Shown here: positions 28,252-62,262 of the stretch, piece after piece | Layout of the letters: the number at the start of each line of letters is the position of its first letter | How positions within the stretch are numbered: the stretch's first letter is position 1 | Assembly (NCBI GenBank): GCA_950295325.1 | Contig: OX485803.1 | Coordinates: 53,521,554 to 53,585,553, forward strand | Reading direction: 5' to 3' | Length of the DNA stretch: 64,000 nt | DNA from: Polytrichum commune | Taxonomy: Eukaryota > Streptophyta > Polytrichopsida > Polytrichales > Polytrichaceae | Position numbers and translations under genes: made by a program | Notes under the pieces: generated by a model | The model's input: only the letters and a program-made list of their open reading frames with translations | Database searches by the model: none | What the model was told of the DNA's origin: nothing

Positions 28252-28656
28252 TATGAGTTTAGGGAGGCACCACGGGCCTTGGCTTGGTGGTTAGGGCTCA
28301 TGGCCCCCAATGAGGAGGTTGTGGGTTCTATTCCCCATGCCGGCGTGGTGCTCACCACCTTAGTCCACCCAACTATGCTGGGGGGTCCTTGGACCTTGTT
28401 GTATGGGTACCTCAAAGCCCTTTGGGGGGATACCATGTCCGGTATCTTCAAGGCACTAGTGGCTAGCTAGGAACTAGTATAGTGTGTCACTATAGTGCCC
28501 ATCCTCGAAAGGGGAGAGTAGTATTGCCCCAATGTCCCCTTGTCCGGTGGGCATCGGGTCATTGACATTACGAACGGACACTTTATTCACGCCGGCCCCT
28601 TGCTAAAAAGGGATCGGAGTTTCTATCTATCTTTCTATCTATCTATGAGTTTAGGG
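28252..28656 (+). mobile_element. tRNA-derived SINE, copy 1, with 13 bp target-site duplication
   Basis: The element is 28265-28643, flanked by the perfect duplication TATGAGTTTAGGG (28252-28264 and 28644-28656). The head carries RNA polymerase III promoter boxes: A-box-like TGGCTTGGTGG at 28280 and B-box-like GGTTCTATTCC at 28324. The body is unrelated to any gene. The 3' end is a TCTATC simple-repeat tail. A second, nearly identical copy is at 61882-62248. The reading frames inside are not expected to be genes. Length, internal promoter, tail and duplication together define a SINE. I do not know its family name. Confidence 0.93.
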
Positions 28657-28676
28657 TCCCCACTGTGGCACTGTAA

Positions 28677-29014
28677 TATCGTAGCTCTCTAGCAGCTCGG
28701 GTAGAAAACAATTAATTAGAAAGGTGCCTAAATTGATGGGAAATTGAATTCGTTGAGTGTCTAAAAAAAACATTTAAAGAGTGTTTAGAATCACAATAAT
28801 GCAAGTGACGTTCATCGTAGCCGCTATAGATGAAATTAGGTAAACCATCCATGAATTATAAAAACAACTTGGATGAATGTCTAACTTATTTTAAATTACT
28901 TCTTGAACCTGCCCAATTTTTGAATATTATTATTCTCCGGGTTGCCTAACTTACTTTCGCACATTAAATAATTATTAGGCAAAAAGGTGCCCAAGCTGCT
29001 AGAGAGTTCCGGTA
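28677..29014. mobile_element. MITE family E, copy 1
   Basis: Terminal inverted repeats: the left end reads TATCGTAGCTCTCTAGCAGC, and the right end read in reverse is TACCGGAACTCTCTAGCAGC. The interior of about 340 bp has no coding capacity. The ends fit a TA target-site duplication. It lies only 20 bp downstream of the SINE. The interior matches 61031-61448 in inverted orientation. Confidence 0.88.
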
Positions 29015-56099: not shown

Positions 56100-58640
56100 T
56101 GAATCTGAATAATTCGGCTCCAAACTGCACGAAAGACCACACTTCAACTTTTGCGCACCGGCTCACTATATGTGTGAATCTTCTATTAACCACAACATTA
56201 ATATCCTGGAATCCTACCACATTTCGTCACAAGCGAGTACCACCACCTAACTGTACCAAGATTTTCACCACAACAATATTGAGACATCTAAGTTACCAGA
56301 AGTCCGCTGCTGGCCAAGCCTAGCTCTCTAGGCTGCTTCCGATCTGCAAGGCTCCCTACAAGCTGCAGCAGATCCTGCACTGAAATTCCCAGCTTGGAGG
56401 ATAGGGTTAAATATGTCTGTCGATTGGTCGAAGGCATCAGCTTCTTGTGATGAGTTACTTTGATCATAATGCTGTATTATGATGATGATGACGATGAGGT
56501 GGAGGATGATTAGCAACGACGGATGCGTGAGTTGGTGATGTCGCTAAGTGTGCAAGCAACGCTGCCAACGCCGGAAGTGTGAAGCTGCCGCCTCCCTCCG
56601 GTCCCTTGATCTGCCTGTAGTTGATGCTACAACGTTTCTTTCCAACACAGACAGGGGCAGGCAGACAGATGGAGATGGCTCAAGTGGAAGAATCGAACAA
56701 TCCATCGCCCGAGCACCAACTTACTTCAACTAAAAAATGGGACAAAACTGCATTCTTGCTTGCCTCAAAATGGACATTGAAGTCCACATGCACATCATTA
56801 TGTTTGATTGTAAAGTGAGACAACCATGCTCAACATGAAACCCATGCATTTTAAATCTTTGCTCACCTATGGATGTTTAAGTTAGCTAGTGTTTGATTGT
56901 GAGGTTCAATTCTTGGACACCCATGCATGTTTCTCTAGTTGCCATGCTCAACATGGAAGGGATGGTGTCCACGCCCTTGGATGCTTGATCTAATAACGTA
57001 GGTGGGTGTTATTTGGTTAATTACCCATGATCTCCAACTTCTACCAATTAGATTTCCACAACAAAAACTCACGTCGCATTAGCAAATCTACAATGAAACA
57101 TATGCAACAAGCGGATTGAAAATCGGACCTCCCCTACTTTAGTTATGGTTATTGGAAGTGCATGTTTGTTGATTCCGTAACTGGATACATACGTCCTCCT
57201 GATTGTGTTCACTATTGAGTGTAGGGTAGTTATTAATATTTAAAGATGTAGTCCAATCTCCTTCAAAACATGTGCCTTTATGATGTTTGCTCTTTGGTCC
57301 TCACCGAACCACTCACCGATCATATACTAGGGGTTCGATTAAAAAAAGTAATTGTATAGCACCCACATACCTTAGGTATTTAGTCTTAACACTACAAGCA
57401 TAGGCATGTCTTGGACAATTGACACGCATCTCTTGGGCAATTGAAAACTTGTAAGAAATTTGCAAATCTAGCACATTGGTAATTTTTGCATTGTGCTTTC
57501 ACCGACATAGAACGATCTCAAGACAATTGTCTAAGACTCATATGTTGGTAGTGTAATGTGTGCTACATCTAAAACAAAATCACCACTTTGGTGTACAAAA
57601 GATGAGTTTTATAAGATTCACAACAATTGCTTCAGCACATTGCATTTGAAAGTCGACATGGAGAATGTGAGAAAGCAACAGTTTTTATGTTACCCTGAAA
57701 TGTTATGATCTCATGAGCATTTAACGCTTGCATGATGATGATTGGTGAGGTCTATGGTTGAATATCGTACAACTTTGAAGTCATTACTAATGTGGAGTAG
57801 TACCGTGAAGTAATGAAGGAATGGAGTCATTTAAATGATAAATAATGATCATCTTAACACATTTGGAATCAATTTTAGGATGCTATAAGGTTCTTGTGCA
57901 ATGTTTTAATTGCATGGATGTCTTATATGAGAGCTTACTTACAGATTTTGTTTTAGGGTTTAGGGTTTTTGGAGATGGAACCCATTTACGTCCAAATATT
58001 TTGTATTTTCGTTGCATTCAACTAGTGAAAGGGGACCACCGCTTGCACATAGATATTTGCACGTCAAGTATTCCCTTGCTTTTCAAAATGCAAATCTAGG
58101 AGCATCATATGTACTTTATTAACCATCTAAGAAAAAATTTCATTGTTATTTTTTATTAGTGTGGTGAGTGGTTGTAAATGAGTCTAGCATTGTCAACATA
58201 TTGCATTAAAATTATTAAAAAAAATAAAAAAATACACTTGTATCAGAATACCGGCATGAATGTGAGCATGTTGGCCTTGTGTTGATCACGGCGTGCCGTG
58301 ATGCAACATTAGGTTTTTGCCTCTTTTTGGAGGTGGGCTCTAGTAGCGTAATAGTTATCCTTTATCATTAGGGTGGGGGACATGTGTTTAGGGGGACAGA
58401 TATCAACATATAGATATCCGATTTGGCAAGATGAAAGTCATTGAGCTTTTACTGATCATGAGATTAGGGTGGGTTTTCACTAGGGTCCAAGATCAAAGGA
58501 ACACCAAACTCGAGCAACCCTATTGTTCAAGAGCAAAACTTTGGACCCAAGGCATTCACACTTAGATCCAAGTCTAAGGCATAAAAGAAATGATGTCGCA
58601 TTGCCACTTTCCGGTCGAATCTTTGTTACAAGTCCCAATT
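56100..58640. other. Protease promoter region and repeat-rich spacer
   Basis: 56100-56900 should hold the protease promoter; small open frames there match nothing. 57190-57390 is an inverted family A copy. No other feature could be recognised. Confidence 0.45.
57190..57390 (-). repeat. Dispersed repeat family A, copy 11 (inverted, truncated)
   Basis: In reverse it reads CCTAAGGTATGTGGGTGCTA, then GGACCAAAGAGCAAACATCA and GATTGGACTACATCTT, following the family order from the 5' end. Confidence 0.65.
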
Positions 58641-60752: not shown

Positions 60753-61492
60753 ACACTAAATATTGTATTTAGTGTAGTATGGTAGTTTATGTCACTGTGG
60801 TAACTTTCGTAATGACACTTCTTATGAATAAGTTTACGAATATTGTCATTCCAATTTACTCTTAGTTCATCCACGTTTGGTATGTTCTGCATGCTAACGA
60901 AGCACAGTCACGGATGAATGAAATTTGGATGAAAAAACCACTAAGGAAATGGCTGTAATTGCAACATTGTAAAGCTACAATGTCCGACAAATCTATAAGA
61001 TATGACAAATATTGTTAGGTTTACAATGAGTACCGTAGCTCTCTAGCAACTTGGGCACCATTCTGCCTAATAATAAAATTAAAGTGCAAAAGCAAGTTAA
61101 GCAGTCCATAAAATAATATTCTAGAATTGGGCAGATTCAAAAGTAATTTAGAATAAGTTAGACAATCATCCAAGTCATTTCTATAATCCATGGATGGTTT
61201 CTCTAATTTCATCTATGGCACCTACGATTAACCTAAACATTTCCCTCAACCAACCTCCCTTACCCTATGAATGCCATTGATGCTACTTTGTTGGATTCCA
61301 GCGAACGTCACTTGCATTATTGTGATTTTAGACACTCTTTGAATGTTACTTCTTTCTTTTTTGGACACGCAACGAAACTAATTTCCCAAAAATTCAAACA
61401 CCTTAAAAATTAATCATTTTCTGCCTAAGCTGCTGGAGAACTATGGTATTAAGCAAGACAAATGGAATTGGTGACACTAAATACAATATTCA
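60753..61492. mobile_element. MITE family F, copy 3, split by a nested family E MITE
   Basis: The left part, 60753-61030, starts ACACTAAATATTGTATTTAG and continues with TATGTCACTGTGGTAACTTT, matching copy 1. The right part, 61449-61492, carries AATTGGTGACACTAAATACA. The family E element (61031-61448) sits between them, so E inserted into F. Confidence 0.82.
61031..61448. mobile_element. MITE family E, copy 2, nested in family F
   Basis: Left end TACCGTAGCTCTCTAGCAAC; right end in reverse TACCATAGTTCTCCAGCAGC. Both are bounded by TA. The interior matches copy 1 (28677-29014) in reverse, including TTTCTATAATCCATGGATGG-like and AGTGACGTTC-like blocks. Confidence 0.88.
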
Positions 61493-61867: not shown

Positions 61868-62262
61868 TACCGTAGAGGGTGAGGCACCAGGGGCCTTGGC
61901 TTGGTGGTTAGGGCTCATGGCCCCCAATGAGGAGGTTGTGGGTTCTATTCCCCATGCCGGCGTGGTGCTCACCACCTTAGTCCACCCAACTATGCTGGGG
62001 GGTCCTTGGACCTTGTTGTATGGGTACCTCAAAGCCCTTTGGGGGGATACCATGTCCGGTGTCTTCAAGGCACTAGTGGCTAGCTAGGAACTAGTATAGT
62101 GTGTCACTATAGTGCCCATCCTCGGAAGGGGAGAGTAGTATTGCCCCAATGTCCCCTTGTCCGGTGGGCATCGGGTCATTGACATTACGAACGGACACTT
62201 TATTCACGCCGGCCCCTTGCTAAAAAGAGACCGGAGTTTCTATCTATCTACCGTAGAGGGTG
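61868..62262 (+). mobile_element. tRNA-derived SINE, copy 2, with 14 bp target-site duplication
   Basis: The element is 61882-62248, flanked by the perfect duplication TACCGTAGAGGGTG (61868-61881 and 62249-62262). It is nearly identical to 28265-28643 over its whole length, with only a few substitutions seen by eye. It has the same A-box-like and B-box-like promoter and a shorter TCTATC tail. The duplications differ between the copies, so these are independent insertions. Confidence 0.93.

Follow-up and report, generated by a model that had tools for sequence, protein, structure and literature searches.

Two SINE copies in the window

The window, by which we mean the whole 64,000-nucleotide stretch of Polytrichum commune DNA analysed here, holds two copies of a SINE, each enclosed by a target-site duplication (TSD) of its own, and on the opposite strand a 5′-truncated copy of a LINE that we presume to be its partner (Table 1). 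An earlier note on this DNA had described the first copy as a TSD-bounded element of 379 bp with a perfect 13-bp duplication, and its coordinates proved exact. The near-identical second copy that it reported was likewise borne out: the two differ by five substitutions and in tail length, and the second carries a different TSD, of 14 bp. When up to 5 kb of flank was compared on either side, three local matches emerged: two belong to a dispersed repeat in inverted orientation and the third is 53 bp long. None was collinear around the elements. As the flanks are non-collinear, the two copies are not one segmental duplication, the origin that the same note had put forward as an objection to its own reading, and this candidate was rejected. 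The inverted dispersed repeat (77–83% identity) lies at about 28674–29014 and about 61031–61451 of the window, near both SINE copies and out of register.

Table 1 Positions of the SINE and LINE features within the window
Feature	Position	Strand	Basis or remark
5′ TSD of SINE copy 1, TATGAGTTTAGGG, 13 bp	28252–28264	+	exact repeat
SINE copy 1, type A, full length, 379 bp	28265–28643	+	
A-box-like motif TGGCTTGGTGGT, SINE copy 1	28280–28291	+	read from sequence; joint A+B test; modest support
B-box-like motif GGTTCTATTCC, SINE copy 1	28324–28334	+	10/11 consensus positions
3′ module A, SINE copy 1	28494–28623	+	predicted folding; sequence relation to module B and LINE 3′ UTR
H1, module A of SINE copy 1 (predicted)	28494–28500/28576–28582	+	one mismatch in copy 1; encloses H2 and H3
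H4, module A of SINE copy 1 (predicted)	about 28589–28620	+	3′ of H1–H3; predicted folding
TCTA-type tail of SINE copy 1	28624–28643	+	variable among copies
3′ TSD of SINE copy 1, TATGAGTTTAGGG	28644–28656	+	perfect match to 5′ TSD
5′-truncated copy of the presumed partner LINE	58217–58393, outer limits approximate	-	LINE covariance model match 58225–58340, 89.6 bits
5′ TSD of SINE copy 2, TACCGTAGAGGGTG, 14 bp	61868–61881	+	
SINE copy 2, type A, 367 bp	61882–62248	+	
3′ TSD of SINE copy 2, TACCGTAGAGGGTG	62249–62262	+	

A young and dispersed SINE family

Searches of the assembly, whose 64 contigs (seven large) total 408 Mb, support the assignment of the window element to a SINE family that is young and dispersed, its tails being TCTA-type and variable and its TSDs 8–14 bp long. 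A DNA search with the SINE yielded 41 matches, 40 at ≥98% identity and one partial at 96% (best 40 of 1747 candidates scored). A 23-mer around the B box had 846 genome matches at up to three mismatches, compared with one for its reversed control; at the same tolerance a 33-mer from the type-A 3′ end had 611 matches and a 34-mer from the alternative, type-B 3′ end had 167, with none for the control in either case. We sampled 60 copies, namely the 20 best DNA-search matches after copy 1 and 40 exact 23-mer matches among those listed, which covered chromosome 1 only; because best and exact matches were chosen, the sample is biased to young copies. Together with the two window copies the set comprised 62 rows, and 56 near-full-length copies were kept for length-based counts, L041, L042, L054, L058, L061 and L062 being dropped since their match was not longer than 330 bp.

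In this sample, which favours young copies, the 56 diverge from the SINE majority by 0–6.4%, two of them being identical to it, and the pairwise difference has a mean of 2.7% and a maximum of 9.5%. The same base marks the start of 45 of the 56 aligned copies. Their tails are mostly (TCTA)n, with some (TCTC)n, (TTTC)n or mixed, and vary in length; no poly(A) tail was seen among those read. The earlier note had named many copies with variable TCTA tails and duplications of 8–15 bp as an outcome that would support it, and the family conforms to this; its view of the element as young agrees with the low divergence, within a sample biased in that direction.

Exact TSDs directly adjoining the element (8–14 bp, median 12) were found in 51 of the 56 near-full-length copies, and all 51 are different. 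Among mismatched flank pairs used as a control, an exact repeat of at least 8 bp occurred in 29 of 3080. The TSD begins with T in 49 of the 51, and the base before it is G in 32. Truncated copies are also present. Outside its normal SINE context, GGAGTTTCTATCTATC was found at nine places in the genome. At seven of them (L084–L087 and L089–L091) the copies retain just 22–40 bp of the SINE 3′ end, and all seven are flanked by exact repeats of 10–14 bp; L083 and L088 are diverged type-A relatives (77–81% over 117–151 bp), around which no clear TSD was found. L139 and L140 are 5′-truncated type-A copies with flanking repeats of 12–13 bp. From 28 exact matches to the type-B 34-mer we drew 18 further loci, six of which reach the SINE 5′ end and 12 of which do not; an exact repeat of 9–14 bp flanks nine of the 12 truncated loci and is absent from the other three. 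At L144 (C2:8434653-8435336) a truncated type-B SINE was seen by eye to lie beside or inside an antisense copy of a LINE 3′ UTR.

The SINE head

The A-box-like motif is the weaker of the two; the B-box-like motif matches the consensus at 10 of 11 positions. At tRNA-like spacing the joint A+B box score is 20 of 23, a value reached by 37 of 2000 shuffles. TTTT is absent inside the two SINE copies checked, as it is in 472 of 2000 shuffles. No match to the Rfam tRNA family (RF00005) was found in copy 1 at E ≤ 5 or in two other copies at E ≤ 10, and ARAGORN found no tRNA in the window; given the lack of an RF00005 match, we describe the element as a SINE that has tRNA-like boxes and do not class it as tRNA-derived. 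These data lend modest support to a tRNA-like head and, likewise modestly, to transcription that would presumably be carried out by RNA polymerase III from the A/B-box region. A tRNA origin of the head is weaker than had been proposed.

Two alternative 3′ modules

Four of the copies set aside above (L041, L042, L058 and L062) have the common 5′ part of about 260–270 bp and then continue into another sequence, ending in AACGTTTC or AGCGTTTC and a simple repeat. Judged by alignment, the 3′ third of the SINE exists as two related modules, which we call A and B: their local score was reached by 0 of 2000 shuffles and their global score by 0 of 1000. Much of this sequence signal lies in the first 30–41 nt, comprising the 5′ arm of the predicted stem H1 and the predicted hairpin H2, where the modules are still alike. 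After this part the relation persists in weaker form, the global score being reached by 2–3 of 1000 shuffles and the local score by 10–14 of 1000. The predicted closing stem is AGTGTCC/GGACACT in module A and GTGCCC/GGGCAT in module B. In L061 (C1:45182147-45183047) the SINE similarity ends at element position 261 and is followed by unrelated C-rich sequence, which is neither type A nor type B.

The presumed partner LINE

A profile search for reverse transcriptase (RT, PF00078) gave at least 150 genome matches (best 150 of 2620 candidates scored), and the downstream stretches of 14 LINE-like RT matches were read. In an L1-like group, three of four copies terminate in poly(A), preceded by a different sequence, and the fourth is without a visible tail. 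Another set, L096–L101, is LINE-like, with long open basic-rich stretches after the RT and zf-RVT in the one scanned (L098); no readable 3′ end was found for it within 3.5 kb. The group L102–L105, with RT matches of about 804 bp, has a structured 3′ UTR and, beyond it, a T-rich repeat near (TTTTC)n, and it is this LINE that we presume to be the partner. Copies of it occur on each of the seven large contigs. The fragment in the window has a possible 9-bp TSD, ATATGTTGA, and another 5′-truncated copy, L121, has a TSD of 17 bp that begins with T and is preceded by G, as are most SINE TSDs.

The open reading frame of one copy, read across overlapping stretches, has 2372 codons and encodes an APE endonuclease domain (PF14529; E 2.1e-7, 31.2 bits, cut-off 27.4) before the RT (E 1.2e-31), as well as RNase H (PF00075; E 5.9e-15). 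Between RT and RNase H, at codons 527–615 of L104 (C5:33411200-33414700), there is a sub-threshold match to PCIF1_WW (PF12237; E 1.6e-6; 28.3 bits, cut-off 31.1). Among solved structures the RT is nearest to R2 (113.5 bits; best L1 71.1), and an L1-group LINE of the same genome, taken as a control, gave the reverse order (L1 184.6, R2 80.5). At the C-terminus a CCHC knuckle and the residues PD, E and K are invariant in four copies, one of which ends early at a stop. A profile of this region run against 177,635 chain sequences gave just two matches, at E 0.96, both of which we take to be R2, and the similarity to R2 next to the zinc knuckle is weak. The C-terminus may possibly hold a second, R2-type endonuclease of the PD-(D/E)xK kind. 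R2 elements insert into rDNA and are not known to carry APE or RNase H; unlike them, the LINE described here has both domains and is spread over all seven large contigs. The Dualen/RandI clade is defined by the combination of APE and a PD-(D/E)xK endonuclease (PMC3636483), and RNase H has been reported for it (PMC4640811). By domain design, with the second endonuclease putative, the presumed partner fits a Dualen/RandI-like LINE.

Relation of the SINE 3′ modules to the LINE 3′ UTR

We extracted 24 LINE 3′ UTRs and, leaving out L121 and L131, used 22. Their consensus has a predicted closing stem H1 (GAGCCC/GGGCTC) around H2 and H3, followed by H4, with double-sided changes in 6 of 26 pairs and in none of H1. 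The arrangement H1[H2][H3]-H4 was predicted for 18 of the 22 LINE ends, for six of six type-A and for two of four type-B modules; this rule was written after the folds had been seen, and 25 and 23 of 1500 shuffles also conformed to it. Modules A and B are predicted to share their fold with the LINE 3′ UTR.

A covariance model built from the 22 LINE sequences alone was run over 26 sources (114,299 bases) and gave six matches at E ≤ 10. These were the LINE copy of the window (89.6 bits), the locus L112 (21.2 bits), three of four type-B SINE copies (14.9–19.2 bits, E 0.03–0.3), in which the match ends at the tail in every case, and a weak match in antisense orientation (E 8.8). None of eight type-A loci and neither window copy was matched at E ≤ 10, nor were L083, L088, L113 and the type-B copy L041. 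A further model from LINE and type-B sequences with an automatic structure of seven pairs was uninformative, ranking the window LINE copy ahead of L092 (E 0.096, probably chance), the type-A relative L083 (E 0.2) and a chance-like rest. In global alignment to the LINE 3′ UTR the score of module B was reached by 0 of 500 shuffles and that of module A by 1 of 500; without the first 30–41 nt the corresponding counts were 5–13 of 300 for B and 1–2 of 300 for A. Local alignment was weak for type A (54 and 49 of 1000 shuffles), and for type B the counts were 6 and 5 of 1000. Homology of the SINE 3′ end to a LINE of the same genome, the mark of a SINE of the stringent type, is supported for type B by both model and alignment, and for type A by alignment, in part by way of type B.

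In the LINEs sampled, the tail resembles (TTTTC)n rather than (TCTA)n. Exclusion-pattern searches of the assembly gave no intact LINE with GGAGTTTC(TATC)n at its end. The first pattern gave nine places, consisting of the seven tiny truncated SINE copies and the two diverged relatives; the second gave three, two of which are 5′-truncated type-A copies with TSDs, while the third by its letters resembles a SINE with a one-base deletion. A further donor pattern returned three places (L111, L112 and L113) against nine for its reversed control. L112 is a degenerate LINE relative, with short stretches like the LINEs L102/L103 upstream of GTTTC(TATC)n, and L113 appears LINE-derived by eye and has no score with the LINE covariance model.

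A model for mobilisation of the SINE

We consider it probable that the SINE is non-autonomous and that its RNA is reverse-transcribed in trans by the endogenous Dualen/RandI-like LINE, which would recognise the structure at its 3′ end. The RNA would be made by RNA polymerase III from the tRNA-like A/B-box head. The LINE protein would then recognise a 3′ RNA in which the closing stem H1 surrounds H2 and H3, followed by a short linker, H4 and the simple-repeat tail. This tail may prime on a target nick with which it shares at least a T, the preferred site lying between G and T, and target-primed reverse transcription would generate TSDs of 8–14 bp and frequent 5′ truncation. Such a mechanism would account for the simple-repeat tail, for the TSDs with their T at the junction, and for copies that lack the 5′ end. 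Mobilisation in trans is probably the right reading of the shared 3′ end, on which it rests. More broadly, we lean towards the view that dual-endonuclease LINEs of Dualen/RandI type persist in one lineage of land plants and there drive a SINE that keeps its RNA architecture more than its sequence, exchanging 3′ modules between LINE subfamilies.

Another candidate origin is that the copies are the ends of a longer LINE or LTR element, which the earlier note had offered as another objection, or that they arose by segmental duplication. The 3′ third is indeed LINE-like, yet 45 of 56 aligned copies begin at the same base, so the SINE is not a terminal part of some larger element; with TSDs directly adjoining in 51 of 56 and the non-collinear flanks of the window copies, this origin was rejected and we regard it as wholly improbable. 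A LINE of L1 or RTE type could instead mobilise the SINE, as in the land-plant pairs listed in the literature (see below), its likeness to the Dualen-like 3′ UTR being convergent. L1-group LINEs are present in the genome, some shuffled modules conform to the folding rule, and the SINE–LINE sequence signal past the first 30–41 nt is modest. Against this, the L1-group 3′ ends that were read carry poly(A) after a different sequence in three of four copies and no SINE tail read is poly(A), on which grounds an L1 poly(A) LINE was rejected as the partner; moreover, none of 500 shuffles aligns to the Dualen-like 3′ UTR as well as module B does, and the LINE-only covariance model places three of four type-B copies correctly. 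We regard an L1 or RTE partner as unlikely.

A refinement of the preferred reading, trans-mobilisation by the Dualen-like LINE, has a stronger case. Type A may be moved by a second LINE subfamily of the same clade that ends in GTTTC(TATC)n, and type B by the sampled LINEs. The LINE-like stretches upstream of this ending in L112, together with its 21.2 bits, speak for it, as does the failure of the LINE covariance model to match type A; on the other hand, the assembly searches yielded no intact LINE with such an ending, and past the first 30–41 nt type A lies at least as close to the sampled LINEs as type B does. We regard this division of labour as a real possibility, although we would not yet expect it.

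Comparison with known SINE/LINE pairs

One survey lists Chlamydomonas SINEX-1, -2, -4 and -5/6_CR with RandI/Dualen LINE tails (PMC3747384). Like the moss element as we read it, these have a SINE 3′ end from a RandI/Dualen LINE and a simple-repeat tail other than poly(A); their tails are (ATT)n or (CTTT)n, and their heads are listed as unknown or tRNA (PMC3747384). Compared by description, the moss SINE differs from the green-algal ones in its (TCTA)n/(TTC)n-type tails and its two 3′ modules. The tobacco TS SINE and its LINE, in the same survey, also have a common 3′ end and a non-poly(A) tail, there (TTG)n (PMC3747384). The partner of TS is an RTE LINE and the shared stretch of about 100 bases is nearly identical, whereas the 3′ sequences of the moss SINE and LINE are strongly diverged and a predicted fold is what they share. 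Maize ZmSINE2 and ZmSINE3 are likewise listed with a partner LINE, and differ in that it is of the L1 clade, in the (T)n tail of ZmSINE2 and in having another structure; the survey also describes a conserved stem-loop at the 3′ ends of plant L1 elements (PMC3747384).

The land-plant SINE/LINE pairs listed in that survey have L1 or RTE partners only, and its table of LINE tails places the RandI families under green algae (PMC3747384). A second source describes plant LINEs as L1 and RTE, and the entry on SINEs in its table ends 'mainly found in Angiosperm' (PMC9033089). Among the results listed from searches of the openly searchable literature we found no Dualen/RandI SINE/LINE pair from a land plant, and an earlier description elsewhere is possible. 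If our reading is true, the moss pair would extend to land plants a RandI/Dualen SINE system known from algae. Since a common architecture seems to be retained in both SINE modules and in the LINE copies despite their widely differing sequences, the pair would make it testable which features of a 3′ end the LINE protein requires.

Host gene content

The gene content of the assembly is moss-like and not that of an angiosperm, a conclusion that is well supported. Dynein heavy-chain domains were found at 13 genome places, in 12 cases above the family cut-off, and flowering plants are not known to have any. For a host LHCII protein the best single-stretch solved relatives were 8HTU and 7XQP, and a fused multi-domain chain, 9VFJ, came first by summed score. 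7XQP is from the moss P. patens (PMC12965295) and 8HTU is named PpPSI-L (PMC10005731). On contig C5, at about 1.75–1.85 Mb, 14 LHCII-type genes lie clustered, with identical domain scores.
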